7,747 nucleotides of DNA from DRGV01 sp018903055 [NCBI: bacterium]. GTDB lineage: Bacteria; UBP18; UBA7526. Under the pieces are notes generated by a model. The model did no database searches. It was not told the origin of the DNA and saw only the letters and a program-made list of their open reading frames with translations. Each line of letters begins with the position of its first letter. The first letter of the stretch is position 1. The stretch is taken from NCBI GenBank assembly GCA_018903055.1, contig JAHIPW010000155.1:1-7747 (forward strand), read 5' to 3'. This document shows positions 1-7,175 of this stretch, piece after piece. Both the position numbers and the translations under genes were made by a program.

Positions 1-138
1 AGAGACTCTTAACCCCGGAGCGGCTTAGAGCCTCTTATGAACGAAGTGAATTAGAGACTCTTAACCCCGGAGCGGCTTAGAGCCTCTTATGAACGAAGTG
101 AATTAGAGATTCTTAACCCCGGAGCGGCTTAGAGCCTC
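1..138. repeat. 52-bp tandem repeat, two exact copies plus one partial
   Basis: Copies at 1-52 and 53-104 are identical. A third copy at 105-138 matches the first 34 bases with one change (C to T at 110) and then diverges into the leader of the GIY-YIG gene. The array may extend left of the window. Each full unit contains ACCCCGGAGCGG and an imperfect dyad centred on ACGAAGT (41-47 and 93-99), with CTCT and AGAG as outer arms. Stop codons occur throughout, so the array is not coding. The copies abut without unique spacers, so it is not a CRISPR array. Its function is unknown; placement directly before a GIY-YIG gene suggests the two belong together. Confidence 0.9.
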
Positions 139-165
139 ATGACGTGAGGGAAGCGGAGGGGCCAA

Positions 166-456
166 ATGTCCAGCGAGTTCTGGTACGTGTATATCCTCCA
201 GTGCAACGATGGTTCATACTACACTGGGATTACTCCTAATATTAATCAGCGCCTGCGGAAGCATAATGCGAGTAAGGGGTGCAGATATACAAGGGCTAGA
301 ACACCTGTCGAGTTAGTTTTTCAGGAGAGGCATCCTAATAAGTCCATAGCCCGAAGGCGTGAAATTGAAATAAAAGATTATAGCAGACAGAAAAAAGAGA
401 ATTTGATAAGAACAAATAAGGTCAGGGGTTTCTCTCGGGAGGTACCCTCGAGATAA
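166..456 (+). CDS. GIY-YIG domain protein (UPF0213/YhbQ-like)
   Basis: This 96-residue protein is a single-domain GIY-YIG nuclease-superfamily member of the size usual for the UPF0213/YhbQ group. The paired motifs are YVYIL (residues 7-11) and YYTG (18-21). Arg29 follows in the first helix, then HN at 33-34, RYTR at 40-43 and the RRRExxIK block at 63-70. Glu66 would be the metal-binding catalytic residue. Cellular role is unsettled for this family; DNA binding or nicking is plausible but not shown here. The ATG at 166 has a good ribosome site (GGAGGGG, 155-161). It is the only clear intact plus-strand gene and lies directly behind a 52-bp tandem array. Its last residues, SREVPSR, are encoded by a near-palindrome at 433-453 that runs up to the stop codon. 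Family identity is secure; a mobile or passenger nature is inference. Confidence 0.9.
   Translation: MSSEFWYVYILQCNDGSYYTGITPNINQRLRKHNASKGCRYTRARTPVELVFQERHPNKSIARRREIEIKDYSRQKKENLIRTNKVRGFSREVPSR
433..453. repeat. Near-palindrome at the 3' end of the GIY-YIG gene
   Basis: The arms TCTCGGG (433-439) and CCTCGAGA (446-453) pair with one G-T pair around a GGTACC-containing centre. The element encodes the last seven residues and ends immediately before the TAA at 454-456. No T-run follows, so it is not a standard intrinsic terminator. Confidence 0.6.
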
Positions 457-480
457 ACTTATCCCCTCACCTCCACCATA

Positions 481-580
481 ACACGGATGCACACAGATAA
501 CAGCACGGATTGACACAGATTTATCCATAATTATCCGTGTATTTAATCCTAAATAGTGAGCAGAACAAAGAAATCCGTGT
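481..580. repeat. ACACGGAT / ATCCGTGT repeat cluster
   Basis: ACACGGAT at 481-488 and GCACGGAT at 503-510 are direct copies; ATCCGTGT at 533-540 and 573-580 are inverted copies. CACAGAT variants lie between them (492-498 and 514-520). The arms could fold into nested hairpins. No ORF is supported in 457-660. The same octamer recurs about 6.4 kb away, in front of the aldolase gene. Confidence 0.8.
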
Positions 581-613
581 CTAAAGAGAGAGAAGTAATA
601 AATATTGGAGAAT

Positions 614-643
614 AAAAAAGGCCGCCTAAAAAGACGGCTTTTT
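614..643 (-). terminator. Intrinsic terminator after gspG, probably bidirectional
   Basis: AAAAAAGGCCG (614-624) pairs with CGGCTTTTT (635-643) through a stem with one bulged G. Read on the minus strand the hairpin is followed by a run of T (CCTTTTTTATT), and it lies 17 bases beyond the gspG stop codon. It also has a T-run on the plus strand, so it could stop transcripts coming from the GIY-YIG side. Confidence 0.75.
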
Positions 644-660
644 CCATTTCTAAATATTTT

Positions 661-1146
661 TTATTTGATACAGGTTCTCACAATGTCCTCATTCCAACCC
701 GTTCCTCCTGCTACCCCATCCTTTCCATAAGAGATGATATCGCAGGAGCCGTCATTATTGCGCTGATAGACGTACTTATTCCCCCAGGGATCTGTGGGCT
801 CCTCTACTGTCGCCGGCTTGCAGCCGCATCCCCCGCCGGTAGTGACAGCAAATCTTCGATACTTTATGTACGGCCCATTCCAGGCATCAAGGTTCTCACC
901 TGATTCAGCAGACGGTTTCTTCACTAGAGCGGGAAGGCCTTGACTCGTAGAGGGAAAATGGCCGATGGTGAGGCGATACATTTCCAAAGAGATGCTGAAG
1001 ATATCCATCTCTGCTTTGGCTGCCTTTACCCTTACTTCCTCTTTGCGATGGGGAAGGATCTTCACCGCAGCAATAGATGCTATCAATCCCATGATAACTA
1101 TGACCACCATGAGTTCAATAAGGGTTATGCCTCTTCCTTTATTCAT
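661..1146 (-). CDS. gspG: Type II secretion major pseudopilin, GspG-like
   Basis: The 161-residue product has a type III prepilin signal: a short basic leader (MNKGRG), processing expected after Gly6, and ITLIE following, so Glu11 is mature Glu5. Residues 7-28 form the hydrophobic N-terminal helix. The globular part has the GspG landmarks: YRL (57-59), FPSTSQGLPALV (64-75), GPYIK (91-95), DPWGNKYVY (119-127) and ISYGKDG (138-144). GspG subunits are cleaved by the prepilin peptidase and assemble into the periplasmic pseudopilus. An unusual stretch at 100-118 carries CGC (107-109), and further cysteines sit at 135 and 159. Isoleucine rather than phenylalanine occupies mature position 1. No other secretion genes lie in the window. 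The start follows the coiled-coil gene by 13 bases; the only purine-rich ribosome site (near 1164-1170) is rather far upstream. A related type IV pilin is the alternative, less likely given the GspG signature. Confidence 0.88.
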   Translation of the reverse strand: MNKGRGITLIELMVVIVIMGLIASIAAVKILPHRKEEVRVKAAKAEMDIFSISLEMYRLTIGHFPSTSQGLPALVKKPSAESGENLDAWNGPYIKYRRFAVTTGGGCGCKPATVEEPTDPWGNKYVYQRNNDGSCDIISYGKDGVAGGTGWNEDIVRTCIK

Positions 1147-1159
1147 TTCAAAGATTACT

Positions 1160-1513
1160 TTATCTCCTTACTTTTTTGATCTCTTTCTCTTTCCTTCGAA
1201 TCTTTGTCTCCAGATTCTTTATCTCTTCACTCAGAGACTTTAATCCTTTCTCAGAGATCTTTCCGCTCTTGACCAGATGGTGGGTCTTCTTCCCCAACTC
1301 CTTCAATTTTCTATCCATCCCCTGGACCAAAGGAATAGTCTCCAACCTCAATCTACTAATCCTGGCTGTCTTTCCCACCTCTTCTCTCGCCTTTTTAGCC
1401 AAGGTGGTCGTCCTCTTCCTAAACTCTGCCAGCCTTTTCTTTGCCTCTTCCAAATCCCTGATCAGGCTTTTCCTTGTCCTCTCCAGAATCTTCTCCACTT
1501 CTTTCTTTATCAT
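1160..1513 (-). CDS. Small basic coiled-coil protein of unknown function
   Basis: The 117-residue product is almost entirely charged alpha helix with heptad spacing. Residues 1-45 and 80-117 are rich in Lys, Arg and Glu. A less charged hinge, LRLETIPLVQGMDRKLKELG, lies near 54-73. There is no signal peptide, membrane segment or cysteine. I chose the ATG at 1511-1513: GAAGGGA lies just upstream and AGGAGG slightly further. A TTG at 1538-1540 would add nine residues made from the ribosome-site bases themselves and is unlikely. The gene heads a two-gene unit with gspG (13-base gap), behind an extended -10 promoter at 1673-1702. I do not recognise a named family. A structural or DNA/membrane-associated role is possible, and a link to the pseudopilin is inferred only from adjacency. 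Confidence 0.75.
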   Translation of the reverse strand: MIKKEVEKILERTRKSLIRDLEEAKKRLAEFRKRTTTLAKKAREEVGKTARISRLRLETIPLVQGMDRKLKELGKKTHHLVKSGKISEKGLKSLSEEIKNLETKIRRKEKEIKKVRR

Positions 1514-1540
1514 TTCTCCCTTCTCCCTCCTTTTTTTCAA

Positions 1541-1665
1541 CTTCTCTGAGTCGAGGAATCGGTGTTACCCCGTTACTCCCTTACCCCCTTACTCCGTTTC
1601 ACCCTTTTTCCGTCTCCCCGTTTCATCTCACCTGCTCACTTTCTCCATTACTCTCTAACAGCTTA
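1541..1665 (-). repeat. Purine-rich low-complexity leader of the coiled-coil/gspG unit
   Basis: On the minus strand this stretch is a run of short purine-rich words: GAGTAA, GGGTAA, GTGAAACGG, GAAACGGGGAG and related forms, repeated irregularly. It lies between the promoter at 1673-1702 and the first gene, and would form a 5' untranslated leader of about 150 bases. No ORF or riboswitch fold could be recognised in it. Confidence 0.55.
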
Positions 1666-1672
1666 TGTTCAA

Positions 1673-1702
1673 AGTATAGCACATTATTTAAACTTTTGTA
1701 AG
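1673..1702 (-). promoter_or_regulatory. Extended -10 sigma-70-type promoter for the coiled-coil/gspG unit
   Basis: On the minus strand the -10 box is TATACT (1673-1678), preceded immediately by TGC, an extended -10 motif. CTTACA (1697-1702) is a 4/6 match to the -35 consensus at an 18-base spacing. It lies three bases beyond the nfo stop codon and faces the coiled-coil and gspG genes. Confidence 0.6.
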
Positions 1703-1705
1703 TAA

Positions 1706-2545
1706 TCATTTGGCTAATTTCCGGAGAATTGCTAAGTTGCTTACATCGTCCCCTGATTCTTTAAAGGGGGTCTCAATGATGATTGGTAGATTTCTCATTG
1801 CTGGATGATGCAATAGGGCCCGGAAGCCTTCCTCTCCGATATATCCCTTCCCAATGTGCCAGTGGCGATCGATACGGGAACCCATGGGAGACTTTGAATC
1901 ATTGGCATGGACAACCTTTAATTTCTTCAAGCCAATTAAATTATCAAATAATTTTAAAGTTTCAGAAACGGCCTTTTTCGTCCTAAAATCATATCCGCTA
2001 ACAAAACCATGGCAGGTATCGAGGCAAATCCCAATTCTTTCTTTTTCTTTGATATTCTCAATGATTTTTGCAATCTCTTCGAATCTGCTGCCCAGTTCTC
2101 TTCCTGCCCCGGCGGTATTTTCTAAAAGAAGTATGACCTCATTCTTAATCCTGTTAAAAGCGGTATTTATTCCTTCACTCACCCTCTCCAACCCTTCTTC
2201 CCGACTGGATTCACCAAAGCTTCCGATATGAGTAACGAGATAGGGTGCTCCCAAGACCTCGGATCTTTTTAAATCTTCTTCTAAGGCATTTACTGATTTG
2301 AGATATAATCCAATTTTAGGAGAAGCAAGGTTGGGAAGATAGGGTATATGGACGATGAGGGGATGAATGTCAAATCTTTCTAAATCATCCTTTAATCTTT
2401 TTACCTCATCGGAAAGGAGTTCCTTCAGTTGCCATCCCCGTGGGTTCCGGGAAAAAATCTGAGCAGTGTTGCAGCCTATCCTCTTTGCCCTCTCTGCCAC
2501 CTGATATATCTTTCCGGCAATGGAAATATGAGCCCCAAACCTCAT
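1706..2545 (-). CDS. nfo: Endonuclease IV (AP endonuclease / deoxyribonuclease IV)
   Basis: This 279-residue TIM-barrel enzyme cuts the backbone 5' to abasic sites and removes blocked 3' ends in base-excision repair. All nine zinc ligands of E. coli Nfo are present at a constant offset of three: His66, His106, Glu142, Asp176, His179, His213, Asp226, His228 and Glu258. The surrounding motifs are VHIPYL, THIGS, LLENTAG, CLDTCHGF, VHANDSK, DRHWHIGKG and IIIETP. The protein is full length for the family. The ATG at 2543-2545 gives the conserved MRFGAH start; its ribosome site (GGTGG) is weak. Upstream lies the S23 remnant with its repeats rather than a clear promoter; downstream, three bases past the stop, a promoter for the next genes begins. 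Function is assigned with high confidence. Confidence 0.96.
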   Translation of the reverse strand: MRFGAHISIAGKIYQVAERAKRIGCNTAQIFSRNPRGWQLKELLSDEVKRLKDDLERFDIHPLIVHIPYLPNLASPKIGLYLKSVNALEEDLKRSEVLGAPYLVTHIGSFGESSREEGLERVSEGINTAFNRIKNEVILLLENTAGAGRELGSRFEEIAKIIENIKEKERIGICLDTCHGFVSGYDFRTKKAVSETLKLFDNLIGLKKLKVVHANDSKSPMGSRIDRHWHIGKGYIGEEGFRALLHHPAMRNLPIIIETPFKESGDDVSNLAILRKLAK

Positions 2546-2596
2546 GGATTACCACCAATGTAAAATGCAAAAAAGAGGGTTAAGCGAAAAGCGGAA

Positions 2597-2698
2597 AAGC
2601 GTTAAGCGGTGAAGAATTTGAGTGATAAGATTGAAAGTTTTGAGAATCTTGAAGTCTGGAAACTTGCCCACCAAAAAGCCAAAAAACCCTTAACGCTT
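2597..2698. repeat. TTAAGCG repeats forming inverted arms around the S23 remnant
   Basis: GTTAAGCG, AAAAGCG, AAAAGCG and GTTAAGCG words run through 2579-2608. AAGCGTTAAG (2597-2606) is exactly complementary to CTTAACGCTT (2689-2698), so 10-base inverted arms enclose the S23-like coding fragment. This looks like the ends of a small element, but no flanking duplication was found. Confidence 0.65.
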
Positions 2699-2764
2699 AA
2701 CGTTCTTATTCACTTATTCACTTATTCACTTATTTACTTGTTACTTGTTACTTGTTACTTGTAA
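2609..2764 (+). pseudogene. Truncated S23 / four-helix-bundle protein gene remnant
   Basis: A GTG at 2609 opens 51 codons ending at TAA 2762-2764. Residues 6-21, DKIESFENLEVWKLAH, match the N-terminus typical of the S23/four-helix-bundle family (first found in 23S rRNA intervening sequences), which begins with FEDLEVWKKA and normally runs to about 120 residues. After about residue 24 the similarity stops: the rest is translated TTAAGCG, CTTATTCA and CTTGTTA repeat sequence. The fragment therefore keeps only the first part of helix 1. There is no clear ribosome site, and an in-frame TAA lies six bases before the GTG. It overlaps the 3' end of the PHP gene on the other strand. I read it as a decayed or repeat-truncated gene. 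A functional micropeptide is unlikely. Recognition rests on one short motif. Confidence 0.65.
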
Positions 2765-2771
2765 CTTGTAA
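2705..2771. repeat. Double microsatellite: CTTATTCA x4 then CTTGTTA x5
   Basis: CTTATTCA is repeated exactly at 2705, 2713 and 2721, with a variant CTTATTTA at 2729. The seven-base unit CTTGTTA follows at 2737, 2744 and 2751, with CTTGTAA at 2758 and 2765. The array joins the S23 remnant directly to the PHP gene. On the minus strand it supplies the last seven codons and the stop codon of that gene. Confidence 0.9.
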
Positions 2772-4160
2772 TTTCTTATGGACAAGAGGAAGGATGGCCA
2801 TAATAAGAAGAAGAGCCCCAGAGAATAAAAGGATATTTCCTAAAACAAAGAGGGTTTCATTATATTCCAGATAGCGAACCCAAAGATTTAAGAATATAAC
2901 TCCCTTAGAAAAGAGAAGGAGAGCTATTCCAATTACCGCTAAATTTAAAAATATAGGCCTTATCCTAATGAGGTACAAAAGGAAATAGAATATAATTGAC
3001 CAGATAATCCAAGATAGGAGTTGGGGACTATTTAAACTGGAGAAGTAGTAGAACATTCCTACAAATGGCTCGAAGAGATATCTTAGCCTATTCTGGGGTT
3101 CAATCCTATCATAGAGAATTACTTTGAATAGATTCGTTTTTCTATTGCGTAGAGCGGTAACAATTGCTTCTTCTCTTTCTTTGTTGTTTAGATTTGACCA
3201 GTTCTCTATATGGACTGAAGTCCAGATGTGAGAGGCGCTTCCCCAACCATGCCAGTTACTCGACCCTATCATGATAAGATTATTTTTCTGGCAGACATTC
3301 TTGATCGCTTCCCGAATAGATTCCTCAGGCCCCAGGACGCGAGCGGTATAAATTTCAAACCCGTCCACTCCAGAATTAGCCAGTTTTTCTAAAGTATGGA
3401 ATTTTTTCCGCCACCAATGGGGGACGATGACCGCTCCTTTGTATTTCTCATGAACTAAGTGGGTAACCTTAGCGATCTCTCTACCGTATTTCCGTTCATC
3501 TACTACCTCATCAATTCCCAGAAGGAGGAAGTTTTCTCCCTGCTTTCCCGTGTAACACTTTACCTCCTGCCCAGTAATAATTACTGCTTGAGGATATTTT
3601 TCTTTGGCTATCTCCTTCGCTCTTCTCGCCCCTTCTAATGTCCGGGGATGATCGGTAATCGCCCAGACATCAAAGCCGTGAGCCAAGTGCCATCTTATAT
3701 TCTCTTCTGGAGTAGCAATCCCTTCATGGGAATAGGTAGTGTGGCTGTGGAGATCGACTAAGATTTCCTCAGAACTTTCTGGCTGTAAGCTATACTTTGG
3801 AAGAGGTGCCAAGGTAATAAAAAGGCAGATTAAAGTAAAGGATATGATGACCTTAAATAGCCCCCTTAATTCTTTGAGAAGATTAACTCTTCTCTTCAAA
3901 TTAAAGAGAAGATAGAAGATAACTATCCAGGCCAGCCAGGAGAGGGTCTGAAATCTAAAATTTGTAGAACGCCAGAAATATTGGGAGGTTCCCACAAAGG
4001 GCTCAAGGATATAGGCGACCGGAGGAATCTTTATCTTGTATCCTTCCACGGGCAGGCCAGTTACTCCATCGAGGAGTTTTAATCGCGGAGTGGGGAGCAA
4101 GAAAAGAATGAAGAGAAAAATAATGAAAAAAATTAGCTTTCCATGTTTCGTAGATAACAT
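2748..4160 (-). CDS. Membrane-anchored PHP-domain (metal-dependent hydrolase) protein with duplicated flanking module
   Basis: The 470-residue protein has a PHP domain (about 133-345) between membrane segments. Likely metal ligands are HSH (138-140), TDH (169-171), GQE (197-199), PHW (247-249) and a variant last motif SSNWH (300-304), where GSDxH is usual. PHP domains hydrolyse phosphoesters; the substrate here is unknown. Predicted membrane segments are about 9-22, 73-88, 102-120, 381-398, 403-425 and 436-460. Basic residues at 88-103 and 399-402 suggest that the PHP domain faces outside. Residues 50-90 and 361-401 are copies of one module: EPFVG, an aromatic stretch, then LSWxxWxIIFYxL. The ATG at 4158-4160 has AGGA eight bases upstream; a TTG six bases earlier is less likely. 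tRNA-Leu ends 19 bases upstream. The last seven residues (LQVTSNK) are encoded by the CTTGTTA array. Confidence 0.82.
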   Translation of the reverse strand: MLSTKHGKLIFFIIFLFILFLLPTPRLKLLDGVTGLPVEGYKIKIPPVAYILEPFVGTSQYFWRSTNFRFQTLSWLAWIVIFYLLFNLKRRVNLLKELRGLFKVIISFTLICLFITLAPLPKYSLQPESSEEILVDLHSHTTYSHEGIATPEENIRWHLAHGFDVWAITDHPRTLEGARRAKEIAKEKYPQAVIITGQEVKCYTGKQGENFLLLGIDEVVDERKYGREIAKVTHLVHEKYKGAVIVPHWWRKKFHTLEKLANSGVDGFEIYTARVLGPEESIREAIKNVCQKNNLIMIGSSNWHGWGSASHIWTSVHIENWSNLNNKEREEAIVTALRNRKTNLFKVILYDRIEPQNRLRYLFEPFVGMFYYFSSLNSPQLLSWIIWSIIFYFLLYLIRIRPIFLNLAVIGIALLLFSKGVIFLNLWVRYLEYNETLFVLGNILLFSGALLLIMAILPLVHKKLQVTSNK

Positions 4161-4179
4161 AATCAATATCCTAAAAATT

Positions 4180-4271
4180 TGGTGCCAGAGGTCGGAGTCG
4201 AACCGACACAGGGTTTAAGCCCCACTGGATTTTGAGTCCAGCGTGTCTACCAATTCCACCACTCTGGCACC
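4180..4271 (-). tRNA. tRNA-Leu (anticodon CAA)
   Basis: The 5' end is at 4271. The acceptor stem GGTGCCA pairs with TGGCACC and the discriminator base is A (4180). The anticodon stem is CTGGA/TCCAG with loop CTCAAAA, so the anticodon CAA lies at 4232-4234 and reads UUG codons. The T arm is GTCGG-TTCGACT-CCGAC, and a long variable arm marks a class II tRNA, as expected for leucine. The 3' CCA is not encoded. It lies 19 bases before the PHP gene on the same strand, so a shared transcript is possible. Confidence 0.96.
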
Positions 4272-4284
4272 GCTTTCTCTTATT

Positions 4285-4331
4285 CCCCGTAAAGTCGTCC
4301 GTCCGTCTTTGTCGGACGGACTCCCACGGGG
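4285..4331. repeat. Large GC-rich hairpin between the tRNA and phosphofructokinase genes
   Basis: The outer arms CCCCGT (4285-4290) and ACGGGG (4326-4331) enclose inner nine-base arms GTCCGTCCG and CGGACGGAC with a seven-base loop TCTTTGT. There is no T-run on either side, so intrinsic termination is unlikely. It resembles a palindromic intergenic repeat and may affect tRNA transcript ends or be a mobile remnant. Confidence 0.7.
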
Positions 4332-4335
4332 CAGG

Positions 4336-4500
4336 TGCGTCTTTTCTTATTCGCGTGTATTCGCGTTTTGGCTTTTTCTTTGCGTCTTTCAGTTTTCTTT
4401 TGCGCTTTTGCGGTTGCAATTCGCGTTGATTTCCGCCACACTAACGGCGGACAGGCGTATTTTGTTTATTGCGTTATTGTCTGACAGTTCGCGTTGATTC
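4336..4500. repeat. TTCGCG / TGCGTCTTT repeat region
   Basis: ATTCGCGT occurs at 4349-4356 and 4359-4366. The longer TTCGCGTTGATT is exactly repeated at 4420-4431 and 4488-4499. TGCGTCTTT occurs at 4337-4345 and 4381-4389. TCCGCC (4432-4437) and GGCGGA (4446-4451) form a small hairpin. No coding sequence is supported between 4272 and 4503. Confidence 0.7.
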
Positions 4501-4503
4501 GTG

Positions 4504-5535
4504 TCACTTGAAGAAGACCTTTGCTAAGTCCCGCCATTTCTTATCTACGGTCTTCAATTTTGCTACTGCTTTTTCTAAGGGAACATCGATTATTTCGTTT
4601 CCCCTTAAAGCAACCATCCTCCCAAACTTTTTCTTAGCCACTAAATCGGCTGCTTTTACCCCACACCTCGTTCCCAGCATCCTATCAAATAAGGTAGGAG
4701 GCCCTCCCCTCTGGATGTGACCGATGACCGATGCCCTGGTTTCGAGCCCGGTCTTCTCCTTTATTATTGTTGCCAGATCCTCTCCCACCCCCCTCTTCCT
4801 CAATATCATATGGCCGAACTGGTCTAATTTCTCCTTTTCCGCCCCCATTCCGGGAATCTTTATTCCCTCAGAGGTTACCACTAAGGCATAGTTCTTTCTC
4901 TTATGAACTTTCTTTAGGTGCCTACACATCTTATCGATATCTACTCTTTCCTCGGGGATGAGAATCCAGTCGGCCCCAGAAGCCATGCCGGTGAATAACG
5001 CCACCCAGCCAGCGTGCCTTCCCATGACCTCTAAGATCATTATTCGCCTGTGAGATCTTCCAGTATCCCTTAATCTCTCCGCGGCATCGACAGCAATGGT
5101 CACTGAGGTATCGAAACCAAAGGTATAGTCTGTGGCAGATAGGTCATTATCCATAGTCTTGGGAACGCCCACCACCTTTACCTTACATTCCTTATATAGT
5201 CTGTTCGCTACGCCCAGGGTATCCTCACCGCCCATGGCGATGAGCCCATCGAGTTTGAGCCTCTTAATGTTCTTTAAGGACTTCTCTACCCCTCCCTTCT
5301 CTTTGAAGGGATTGATCCTTGAGGTCCCCAGAATAGTACCTCCTCTACCGACGATTTCTTCCACATCCTTTAGTTTCAAGGGCTTACTCTTTCCCTCAAT
5401 GAGGCCCTTGTATCCTTCCAATATTCCAATGACTTCAAAACCATAATCGAAGGCTCTGGCCACTGCTCCTCTTATGGCCGGGTTCAATCCCGGACAGTCT
5501 CCCCCTCCAGTCAATATCCCAATCCGTTTTGCCAT
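4504..5535 (-). CDS. 6-phosphofructokinase, PPi-type active site (group III-like)
   Basis: The 343-residue enzyme phosphorylates fructose-6-phosphate to fructose-1,6-bisphosphate in the cytoplasm. Motifs seen are GGGDCPGLN (10-18), GGEDTLG (102-108), PKTMDNDL (125-132) with catalytic Asp129, the MGRHAGW substrate motif (171-177) and a GHIQRGG block with downstream FDRMLGTR. Asp105 and Lys126 occupy the two positions that are Gly in ATP-dependent E. coli PfkA (104 and 124). In characterised members Asp and Lys there go with pyrophosphate use and a reversible reaction. GGEDTLGVA with PKTxDND is the pattern of the Amycolatopsis PPi enzyme in the mixed-substrate group III. The ATG at 5533-5535 has AGGAGG six bases upstream; an earlier in-frame start is not needed. 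It is the third gene after aldolase and GxxExxY (55-base gap). Phosphofructokinase identity is certain; the phosphoryl donor is inferred. Confidence 0.95.
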   Translation of the reverse strand: MAKRIGILTGGGDCPGLNPAIRGAVARAFDYGFEVIGILEGYKGLIEGKSKPLKLKDVEEIVGRGGTILGTSRINPFKEKGGVEKSLKNIKRLKLDGLIAMGGEDTLGVANRLYKECKVKVVGVPKTMDNDLSATDYTFGFDTSVTIAVDAAERLRDTGRSHRRIMILEVMGRHAGWVALFTGMASGADWILIPEERVDIDKMCRHLKKVHKRKNYALVVTSEGIKIPGMGAEKEKLDQFGHMILRKRGVGEDLATIIKEKTGLETRASVIGHIQRGGPPTLFDRMLGTRCGVKAADLVAKKKFGRMVALRGNEIIDVPLEKAVAKLKTVDKKWRDLAKVFFK

Positions 5536-5590
5536 ATTTCTCCTCCTTAGCAACGAGATTTAAACAGATAAAAAACTGATTTAGACAGAT

Positions 5591-5983
5591 TTATTTGGCC
5601 CGAAATAGACGAAAGTATTCCAGTTTAGGGGTACCAAAATTAGCCAGAATTCCTACTTGATAAGATGTTCCTTTCAAGTAGGAAATTAATTGATCCTTAA
5701 ATATTTTGGCAGTTGTTGTGGCCGCCTTTAATTCTAATATGATTTTATCTTCTACAACTAAATCCAATTTATACTTACCAATAACTTTAGCGTGATAAAC
5801 TATCTCAATCTCTTTTTCTATTTCAACTTTTAAGTCTTCACGTTTTAGATCCTCTACTACTGCCCGCTGGTAAATTCTTTCTGGAAAACCACAGCCTAAG
5901 GTATTATGAACCTTTATTAAAATCCCGATGATCTTATAGGTAAGTTCTTCATGTAGATATTTCTCGTCTGTATCTGTTTGCAT
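5591..5983 (-). CDS. GxxExxY protein (PD-(D/E)XK-like)
   Basis: The 130-residue protein carries the family signature GFPERIY (32-38) after the helix KIIGILIKVHNTLG, matching the TIGR04256-type GxxExxY family at its usual length. The core YKLDLVV...ILELKA gives Asp74 and Glu84-Leu-Lys86, the spacing of a PD-(D/E)XK nuclease active site. The biological role of this family is unknown to me. The ATG at 5981-5983 has only a weak AGGA upstream. The gene sits between aldolase (28-base gap) and phosphofructokinase (55-base gap) on the same strand, with no metabolic reason to be there. By eye it is AT-richer than both neighbours. CAGAT words flank it, and its own start codons (QTDTD) read through a related ACAGATACAGAC stretch. 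This suggests insertion into an existing glycolytic operon; that part is inference. Confidence 0.88.
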   Translation of the reverse strand: MQTDTDEKYLHEELTYKIIGILIKVHNTLGCGFPERIYQRAVVEDLKREDLKVEIEKEIEIVYHAKVIGKYKLDLVVEDKIILELKAATTTAKIFKDQLISYLKGTSYQVGILANFGTPKLEYFRLFRAK

Positions 5984-6011
5984 CGGCTTCCTATCTGCTT
6001 ACATCTCGTCG

Positions 6012-6875
6012 CTATGCCTTCTTGTTGCAGCCGAAGTGTCTCATCCTGTCCCTGATCACTTCCTTAACCGCTTCCTTCGCTGGACCCAGGATTTTTCTGG
6101 GATCGATTTCATCCGGTTTCTCGGCTAAGACCTCTCTGGTCTTCTTGACAAAGGCCATCCTTATTCTGGTATCGATATTTATTTTGCTCATCCCAGCAGC
6201 GATTCCCTTTTTAATCTCTTCATCATTGCAGCCGCTGGCACCATGTAATACCAAAGGAACCTTAGTTAATTCCCGAATCTTCTCTATTCTGGGAATGTCT
6301 AATTTAGCAAAGGGAGTCCGACAGCCATGTATTGTTCCCACCGCTGCTGCCAAGGAATCCAGACCGGTCAATTCCACGAAACGCTGAGCTTCCTCTGGCT
6401 TGGCATAGAACTCATGGGCCTTCTCTATAGCCACTCCCGGTTCATCGCCGCCAGCCTTTCCAATCTGGCCTATCTCTGCCTCTACTGGGATATCCACCGC
6501 ATGGGCCATCTCGCAGACCTTCTTGGTCAGGGCAACATTCTCATCAAAGGGTAGTTTCGAACCATCAAACATGAGAGAGGTAAAGCCTGCCCTGAGGCAC
6601 TTGATATTCTGAAGATAATCTGTCCCGTGGTCCAGATGTAGAGCCACGGGAATGGTTGCCTTCTCTGCTGCGGTCTTAACCATGGCTACGATGTACTCCA
6701 GACCAGCATACTTTATTGCTCCCTGAGAAGCCTGCAGGATCACCGGCGCCCTCTCCTCCTCCGCTACTTCAATAATGGCCTGGATGATTTCCAGGTTATT
6801 GGCATTGAACGCCCCTACTGCATACCCTTCTGCCTGGGCTTTCTTCAACATCTCCTTCGTAGTCACTAATGGCAT
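6012..6875 (-). CDS. fba: Class II fructose-bisphosphate aldolase
   Basis: The 287-residue zinc enzyme reversibly splits fructose-1,6-bisphosphate into dihydroxyacetone phosphate and glyceraldehyde-3-phosphate. LHLDHGTD (79-86) holds catalytic Asp82 and zinc ligand His83. VEAEIG (131-136) holds Glu134. GTIHG (180-184) gives zinc ligand His183 and LVLHGASG (208-215) gives His211. SKINIDT (230-236) is the substrate loop. GTIHGCRT departs from the commoner GTAHGxYK. Length and ending fit the family. I place the start at the ATG 6873-6875 (MPLVTTKEML), with AAGGAGG eight bases upstream; the longer in-frame reading would translate the ribosome site and repeats. Transcription probably starts from the promoter at 7027-7055, giving a leader of about 145 bases full of ACACGGAT hairpins. 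The gene leads the aldolase, GxxExxY and phosphofructokinase unit. Confidence 0.95.
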   Translation of the reverse strand: MPLVTTKEMLKKAQAEGYAVGAFNANNLEIIQAIIEVAEEERAPVILQASQGAIKYAGLEYIVAMVKTAAEKATIPVALHLDHGTDYLQNIKCLRAGFTSLMFDGSKLPFDENVALTKKVCEMAHAVDIPVEAEIGQIGKAGGDEPGVAIEKAHEFYAKPEEAQRFVELTGLDSLAAAVGTIHGCRTPFAKLDIPRIEKIRELTKVPLVLHGASGCNDEEIKKGIAAGMSKINIDTRIRMAFVKKTREVLAEKPDEIDPRKILGPAKEAVKEVIRDRMRHFGCNKKA

Positions 6876-6894
6876 CTCTTTTTCCTCCTTTTTA

Positions 6895-7024
6895 ACACGG
6901 ATAATCACTGATTCTTTACGGATGGGCACTGATTTATCCGTGTCAATGCTTAATTATTTATGCTCTCTAGGATGCTAACGAAGTGCATCCTGTAATCCGT
7001 ATTGTTATCCGTGCTAATCCGTGT
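6895..7024. repeat. ACACGGAT repeats and hairpins in the aldolase leader
   Basis: ACACGGATAATCA (6895-6907) pairs with TGATTTATCCGTGT (6930-6943), about 13 base pairs with one bulge, ending four bases from the aldolase ribosome site. Further copies are ATCCGTAT (6995-7002), ATCCGTGC (7007-7014) and ATCCGTGT (7017-7024). A second hairpin has arms AGGATGC (6969-6975) and GCATCCT (6985-6991) around TAACGAAGT. No ORF is supported between 6876 and 7173. Confidence 0.8.
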
Positions 7025-7026
7025 TT

Positions 7027-7055
7027 ATTATACTACACGAAGTAGTTTTCGTCAA
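7027..7055 (-). promoter_or_regulatory. Near-consensus sigma-70 promoter for the aldolase unit
   Basis: On the minus strand TTGACG (7050-7055, 5/6) and TATAAT (7027-7032, 6/6) are separated by exactly 17 bases. The spacer contains a small inverted repeat, ACTAC and GTAGT around ACGAA (7032-7046). The -35 box directly abuts the ACCCCGCACCTTTT repeat arm. Confidence 0.75.
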
Positions 7056-7175
7056 CCCCGCACCTTTTCAATATTCACCCCGCTCCTTCTTCTCCTCAAA
7101 TCCCAACCGCAGACAAGGAAGGGGCGGGGTTCATTTTTTATTTTAACACCTTGAATGGATAAAAGGTGCGGGGTC
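7054..7175. repeat. Inverted-repeat element with ACCCCGCACCTTTT arms (REP/MITE-like)
   Basis: ACCCCGCACCTTTT (7055-7068) is exactly complementary to AAAAGGTGCGGGGT (7161-7174). Inside it a second pair lies roughly at 7073-7090 (ATTCACCCCGCTCCTTC) and 7116-7135 (GAAGGGGCGGGGTTCAT), imperfect but clearly related. A small hairpin CACCTT/AAGGTG lies at 7147-7168. The nested symmetry in about 120 bases is that of a small palindromic element. The right arm overlaps the first base of the dnaE stop codon. Confidence 0.75.

Follow-up and report, generated by a model that had tools for sequence, protein, structure and literature searches.

GxxExxY genes appear to move together with inverted short-word arms as tiny selfish units in the intergenic gaps of many bacteria and some archaea

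Homing endonuclease genes are nuclease genes that spread into fixed sites. For three widespread and mutually unrelated families of proteins, GxxExxY, free-standing S23 and small GIY-YIG, we know of no settled role. In the RAYT system with its REP/BIME repeats, a small gene lies between two inverted short repeats and gene-less copies occur in the genome, and mobilisation in trans has been proposed (PMC2817692). The S23 element of Coxiella is presented in PMC4990558 as a selfish element of 428 nt, excised by RNase III and carrying tandem GACAGAT heptamers, two or three by strain, upstream of the start codon; elsewhere S23 has been suggested to be a homologue of the diversity-generating retroelement protein Avd (PMC10053308). 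Here we describe a 7,747-nucleotide stretch of DRGV01 sp018903055 (assembly GCA_018903055.1), hereafter the window, which is the complete contig JAHIPW010000155.1, one of 191 in a draft genome totalling 1,085,295 bases. A GxxExxY gene in the window is enclosed by inverted arrays of a short word, and comparison with relatives and distant genomes suggests that GxxExxY, in many bacteria and some archaea, forms a tiny selfish unit with its arms and moves together with them. No description of such units was found in the titles and abstract beginnings of the open-licence PMC articles that our searches listed, preprints lying outside this scope.

The GxxExxY gene lies on the minus strand at 5591-5983 (TIGR04256, 122.9 bits versus a curated cut-off of 35) within a minus-strand unit at 5548-6014, whose inverted arms at 5548-5590 and 5972-6014 agree at 33 of 43 positions and carry ACAGAT words. 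Arms were scored by aligning one 150-bp flank with the inverted other and taking the best local match, with a threshold of 28; the window unit scores 36, and a score of at least 34 was reached by 2 of 149 control open reading frames (ORFs). In the window's family (f1, G000-G005, all six genomes of the phylum compared) GxxExxY occurs in every genome, and its arms match at 10 of 20 loci, compared with 4/149 control ORFs and 13/193 swapped flank pairs. A second set, the named loci, comprised the best 80 among the 585 listed and confirmed matches to one subfamily profile and is therefore a sample of that subfamily, covering about 16 phyla judging by record titles and with Gracilimonas and Gelidibacter, which include cultured species, among the carriers; 79 were counted, L192 having a right flank of 14 bp. 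Here arms match at 56/79 loci versus 48/311 swapped pairs, while the same flanks compared without inversion reach the threshold in 15/79. It is very improbable that the repeats are ordinary intergenic sequence grown by slippage, with small genes nearby since both inhabit gaps. The window's TTACTTG and CTTATTCA runs are slippage-like and most arrays do lie in gaps, but these genes proved to have matched arms much more often than control genes do (0/125 control ORFs of the named loci reach 28), and swapped arms match far less.

GxxExxY genes are bracketed by inverted arrays built from a C-R-C-N-R-A-K word. Their flanks are often inverted short-word arrays in which the word varies by locus and recurs on both sides, and at least three spaced C-R-C-N-D-A-D words in one orientation were found at 93/109 loci, with the consensus words CACAGAG (26), CACGGAG (15), CGCAGAG (9), CACGAAG (8), CACGGAT (7) and others in smaller numbers. 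The C-R-C-N-D-A-D pattern had been preset before counting, so its shape is no independent result. A double CRCNDAD word is present in both flanks of 13/20 f1 and 59/79 named GxxExxY loci, of 3/28 (f1) and 0/14 S23 loci, and of 1/149 control ORFs (Fisher p = 1.1e-13 for f1 GxxExxY versus controls); in at least one flank, the counts are 17/20 and 74/79 for GxxExxY and 7/28 and 0/14 for S23. GxxExxY frames at L032:1441-1893 and L040:1450-1851 begin within the array, their protein N-termini being translated words (NPQITQINAD and KTTEDTEYTED), and the start codons called there may be misplaced. The betaproteobacterial GxxExxY loci L151, L162, L169, L202, L208 and L220 lie in gaps of the tryptophan operon, as read by eye from flanks and alignments.

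To relate word to protein, we compared the two distances over the 93 of 109 loci with a definable word, among which L022 and L198 share one contig. The correlation is 0.47, and stays at 0.46 without pairs from similar surroundings and 0.44 when pairs above 60% identity are removed as well (0/2000 permutations in each case). Within 71 named loci, however, r falls to 0.01, with 800/2000 permutations as high. Only the word's broad class therefore tracks the protein, and strict protein-specific words are unsupported inside the named subfamily. The sequence-only reading of the window had proposed that each small gene's product acts on its own repeat; for GxxExxY this agrees with the broad correlation and not with the fine one, and such action can be held only as an inference. 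The arrangement resembles RAYT/REP in having gene-less copies and in placing one gene between inverted repeats of one kind, as at the window gene, 56/79 named GxxExxY loci and 24/42 S23 loci. It differs in that fine covariation of word and protein was not found, that the arms are short-word arrays and not one palindrome, and that the proteins belong to PD-(D/E)XK, S23 and GIY-YIG families; the Y1 (HUH) transposase domain PF01797 has 0 matches in G000-G003, the genomes searched. RAYT genes are moreover said to evolve fast, unlike GxxExxY.

The GxxExxY protein is under strong purifying selection, with a ratio of nonsynonymous to synonymous divergence (dN/dS) of 0.02-0.10 in four different-site pairs and 0.05-0.07 in two same-site pairs. 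Residues E35, E84, K86, Q98 and Y102 are invariant in 16/16 homologues and D74 nearly so (N in L040), and with E84, K86, Q98 and nearly always D74 these sequences keep the catalytic residues of PD-(D/E)XK nucleases. No solved structure was matched by sequence at E 0.1. The predicted fold (predicted local distance difference test, pLDDT, 92.3) comes nearest to SSO0001, a Cas4 protein (4ic1; E 8e-5, TM score 0.56 by query length); MGME1 and lambda-type exonucleases follow at E above 0.001. GxxExxY resembles Cas4/RecB-like nucleases in its best fold match and in the residues of the D...ExK and QxxxY motifs, and differs by its size of about 125 residues and a TM score that remains modest at query length. 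A role in anti-phage defence was considered and dropped, as 0 PADLOC-DB families matched for 4 proteins. The genes could also be passengers, nuclease genes caught by chance in inverted-array stretches that an unrelated transposase or recombination moves. Most arrays are indeed gene-less, and word and protein lack fine covariation; we nevertheless judge this improbable, since the same class of word flanks the same gene family across about 16 phyla (by titles), S23 prefers other words than GxxExxY, and dN/dS values this low are hardly expected of passengers.

Judged from sequence comparison, GxxExxY units behave as mobile: they occur as unit-only copies elsewhere, sister sites are empty, and same-site synonymous divergence (dS) is low in two cases. 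The same unit at different sites, a trait of MITEs and insertion sequences, was seen in three GxxExxY cases in relatives, one of them judged from one side only. In BLAST searches of the f1 loci, G003:C30:3034-3490 shares only the unit with G003:C45 (91%) and with G001 (89%); G002:C24 and G005:C47 share a unit-only copy of 481 bp at 88%; and the copy shared by G004:C42 and G002:C88 (406 bp, 80.5%) ends at a word. Empty sites were found for L004 of G000 (549 bp versus 0 bp in G003, before an FtsZ-like start named by eye) and for G003:C30 (478 bp versus 18 bp in G004), and the window stretch 4286-4493 faces about 0 bp in G003, with one ATTCGCG kept, and 4 bp in G001. In G003 and G002 the gap between phosphofructokinase (PFK) and class II aldolase (FBA), which holds the window's GxxExxY gene, lacks that gene; in G003 it carries another gene-less array. 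From empty sites and unit-only copies together it follows that full and gene-less units have been gained and lost. Presence or absence of whole blocks at orthologous gaps, which the sequence-only reading had proposed to look for, is seen for GxxExxY, whose blocks also occur as copies at different sites.

Two same-site GxxExxY units compared between G000 and G003 show dS values of 0.055 and 0.138, against a yardstick of 0.61 for PFK, 0.83 for FBA, 0.78 for Nfo and 0.45 for DnaE in the same genome pair. At L001, identity in 100-bp windows is 95-100% within the unit and mostly 70-90% outside it, lower at the far end; tblastx rows for the neighbours of L001 and L002 were left unused, being apparently frame-mixed (dN > dS in 3/5). 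In addition, window positions 462-588, comprising a gene-less unit at 479-588 and 17 bp of tRNA, are 99.2% identical over 127 bp to G003 L117:13775-13901, while other aligned blocks of the window and G003, which represent different genera, are 72-88% identical. This near-identity reflects either recent exchange or assembly mixing. Such values would suit a homing-type spread, in which an allele that is empty or carries an array is cut by the nuclease and receives the unit during repair, so that species exchange units at fixed sites; the near-identical stretch includes noncoding DNA, several gene-less gaps already contain an array, and GxxExxY resembles homing endonuclease genes in being a nuclease gene for which spread into fixed sites is conceivable. 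GxxExxY units differ from homing endonuclease genes in having word-array ends and copies at other sites, and these copies require more than homing. Since another same-site pair diverges ordinarily and the excess similarity could stem from chimeric draft assembly, we regard homing as an unlikely account.

Gene-less arrays with words similar to the GxxExxY arms are common. Across 334,109 bases of the window and sister stretches we counted 66 CRCNRAK double words, compared with 7 in shuffled sequence, and 51/66 of these arrays lie in gaps. Eleven of the 66 fall within 200 bp of a GxxExxY gene, a zone of 1,313 of the 42,056 noncoding bases. Three arrays of the window look like gene-less members of the GxxExxY class. 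The first, at 479-588 (no strand assigned), consists of ACACGGAT words, from 481, followed by ATCCGTGT words; the second, at 6894-7025 (likewise unstranded), has inverted arms ACACGGAT.. / ..ATCCGTGT (pair I9, 19-nt arms, 84% complementary); the third, at 4346-4500, is built of ATTCGCG/TTCGCG words (TTCGCG at 4350, 4360, 4420 and 4488), a word type that also flanks L025 and L042.

S23 units were compared in the same manner. Arms match at 24/42 S23 loci (44 tried, 42 with both flanks) versus 6/248 swapped pairs, and within f1 at 14/28 versus 4/149 control ORFs and 4/272 swapped pairs; this count leaves out L070 and one place in L115 for a short flank as well as L058, L059 and L061-L063 as partial matches or long frames, and covers candidate S23 rows fetched in part. 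The arm words, among them GGTAAAAG, ATCAGA, GGTTTACGG and GGAGTAAGG, differ in kind from those of GxxExxY. In the window, a degraded unit at 2579-2707 on the plus strand comprises a TTAAGCG left arm, an S23 N-terminal remnant and the right arm CGCTTAACG, and it sits between the Nfo and PHP genes in a gap of 223 bp that measures 2 bp in G003. The TTAAGCG arms (pair I6, 25 nt, 72%) are accompanied by CTTATTCA (4.4 copies) and TTACTTG (5.1 copies) between 2595 and 2769, and an unstranded CTTATTCA / CTTGTTA array occupies 2705-2769; in G001 and G002 the CTTGTTA part is present in shortened form without the S23 remnant. The remnant (at 2609) gave no hidden Markov model (HMM) match, yet 16 of its residues align at 69% (E 2e-6) with an S23 protein from a sister genome, and full S23 genes were found in relatives. 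A further array, of TTACCCC/TTACTCC words at 1565-1606 (TTACCCC/GGGTAA), is gene-less and, by eye, of the S23-arm kind: read on the opposite strand, it resembles an arm of the S23 locus L067. For S23, presence and absence are seen and a recent copy at a new site is not: comparison of 26 segments gave none, and where a match was limited to the gene its identity was 66-70%; in the two S23 gaps compared, other short sequence or arrays take the place of the absent gene. As separate observations, S23-like matches in G013 form close divergent pairs in several places, unlike the single genes here, and G003 has at L116:9182-9533 a 352-bp insertion (6 bp in G004) with inverted ATCAGA-type words and no evident gene, nested among other repeats.

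The S23 units share with the intervening sequences of 23S rRNA (PMC4990558) an S23 ORF, reduced to a remnant in the window, inverted ends, tandem heptamers upstream and a length of about 0.4 kb; they differ in lying between protein-coding genes, and an Rfam scan of the window returned tRNA only. The arms might accordingly be RNA devices that fold in the transcript and are excised by RNase III, with the protein playing a minor part in movement. Excision would render insertion between operon genes harmless, and the units do lie between closely neighbouring genes, while the Coxiella element, selfish, RNase III-excised and equipped with tandem GACAGAT heptamers (PMC4990558), is laid out like the S23 arms seen here. 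We consider this account possible though less likely than not, because it leaves unexplained both the unit-only copies of GxxExxY at new sites and the purifying selection, and the Coxiella ORF decays where GxxExxY is conserved here. RNA excision is, however, compatible with selfish units, as a means of being tolerated.

The third family is represented by a UPF0213-like GIY-YIG gene at 166-456 on the plus strand (PF01541, E 2e-18; closest solved structures by sequence 1zg2 and 1ywl). Its ORF runs on into what is left of a tRNA-Ala gene, the T-arm and the 3' end (418-478): the tRNA 3' end lies at 463-478 on the plus strand (CCCCTCACCTCCACCA), and the T-arm AAGGTCAGGGGTT recurs at 418-430 within the ORF. 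The intact copy of this tRNA-Ala occupies the syntenic position in G003 (L117:13885-13960), directly before the same ACACGGAT unit, and a tRNA lies within 230 bp of 10/17 other small GIY-YIG loci scanned. In G006, tRNA pieces at GIY-YIG loci are partly duplicated. We took 19 small GIY-YIG loci, leaving out UvrC-like and some weak GIY-YIG matches; 18 could be scored and seven reach 28 (L073, L074, L076, L085, L088, L091 and L092), with L088 and L092 lying in 97% identical stretches of two genomes. Some small GIY-YIG genes thus stand between hairpin repeats: L076, in G003, has ACCCCGCACCTTTT arms, as does a gene-less hairpin at window positions 7055-7174 (arms ACCCCGCACCTTTT / AAAAGGTGCGGGGT, pair I5, 23 nt, 83%). 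A RAYT partner for the ACCCCGCACCTTTT hairpin was rejected, G000-G003 containing no Y1 transposase. In G008, both small GIY-YIG genes have GTCATTC..GAATCC repeats on either side at distances of up to about 120 bp, 26 copies being present in this 2.5-Mb genome; of the three small GIY-YIG genes of G010, which has 38 copies, one has four within 200 bp, and near-variants occur in the flank of another. The window also opens with an unstranded 52-bp direct repeat at 1-138 (2.7 copies, 98% matches) with hairpin-like halves ..GGAGCGGCTTAGAGCCTC / GAACGAAGTGAATTAGAGACTC; it has no copy outside the window among the loci compared, and by eye it resembles GAACGnAGTGAA repeats beside other GIY-YIG genes.

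The window encodes GIY-YIG, GspG, an unassigned protein, endonuclease IV (Nfo), the S23 remnant, a PHP-domain protein, tRNA-Leu, PFK, GxxExxY, FBA and the end of a gene for DNA polymerase III alpha. All repeats listed by the sequence-only reading are there, as are its three small genes, and profiles confirm GIY-YIG and GxxExxY; the S23 assignment stands on the alignment to the sister protein and not on an HMM. The coupling that this reading guessed at is found in general. Its view that each gap holds one repeat family has to be given up, as ACACGGAT occurs in two gaps, and the six repeat families reduce to three classes, of GxxExxY, S23 and GIY-YIG type. The small genes were also thought to abut repeats of their own, which describes GxxExxY well (36), the S23 remnant weakly (22, with shorter flanks; 9/149 controls reach 22) and GIY-YIG not at all (15), the ACACGGAT unit beside the latter belonging to the GxxExxY class. 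Enrichment of each gene family for one repeat family, which that reading had proposed to test in relatives, is strong for GxxExxY and S23, each with its own kind of arm; the GIY-YIG gene of the window is armless. Nor do repeats generally ride with genes, most arrays having no adjacent gene.

These units occupy gaps between neighbouring genes, some apparently within one operon, and GIY-YIG often stands beside tRNA genes. We think it probable that the gaps hold small selfish units together with derivatives of them that have decayed or lack the gene. A complete unit, about 400-550 bp long, would consist of one small gene between two inverted short-word arms, the arms being the unit ends. The PD-(D/E)XK protein of GxxExxY, with its predicted Cas4/RecB-like fold, would recognise or process the array ends as single- or double-stranded DNA; by acting on its arms in this way it would promote copying of the gene with its ends, and gene-less pairs may be moved in trans. 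The same plan, with other words, would apply to S23 units and to some of the GIY-YIG units, and we infer that they operate alike. A bolder proposal, which we hold tentatively and with rather less than even confidence, is that GxxExxY proteins are the movers of a bacterial and archaeal element with inverted C-R-C-N-R-A-K ends, in which a Cas4-like nuclease, and no transposase, copies gene-bearing and gene-less units, the S23 and GIY-YIG units being parallel inventions.

A number of observations weigh against these proposals. At the base-sharp empty site of L004 no target duplication is seen, and 13 extra bp lie past the arm; other boundaries are blurred. The right flank of G002:C24 is masked (N), so the difference of site is visible on the left only. 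The same-site pair L026/L111 is ordinary (dS 0.476, neighbours 0.51-0.55), and L024/L031 gives 0.255 without a yardstick. Arm scores fall below 28 at 23/79 named GxxExxY and 18/42 S23 loci, the window GIY-YIG gene has no matched arms (score 15 inverted, 13 direct), as many as 28/149 controls carry the double word in one flank or both, and 55/66 CRCNRAK double-word arrays lie more than 200 bp from any GxxExxY gene. Odd for a mobile gene, searches with one query protein found GxxExxY on plasmids in 8/72,556 records and in phages in 0/50,697. Finally, all six f1 genomes are fragmented drafts, and some of the 20 f1 GxxExxY loci counted are mutually orthologous.

The selfish-unit reading offers a candidate role for three widespread protein families, GxxExxY, free-standing S23 and small GIY-YIG, and a candidate origin for unexplained intergenic repeats such as inverted CACAGAG/CACGGAG arrays or GTCATTCCCGCGAAAGCGGGAATCC. 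If it is true, nuclease-linked units would join REP/RAYT as pairs of a repeat and a gene.

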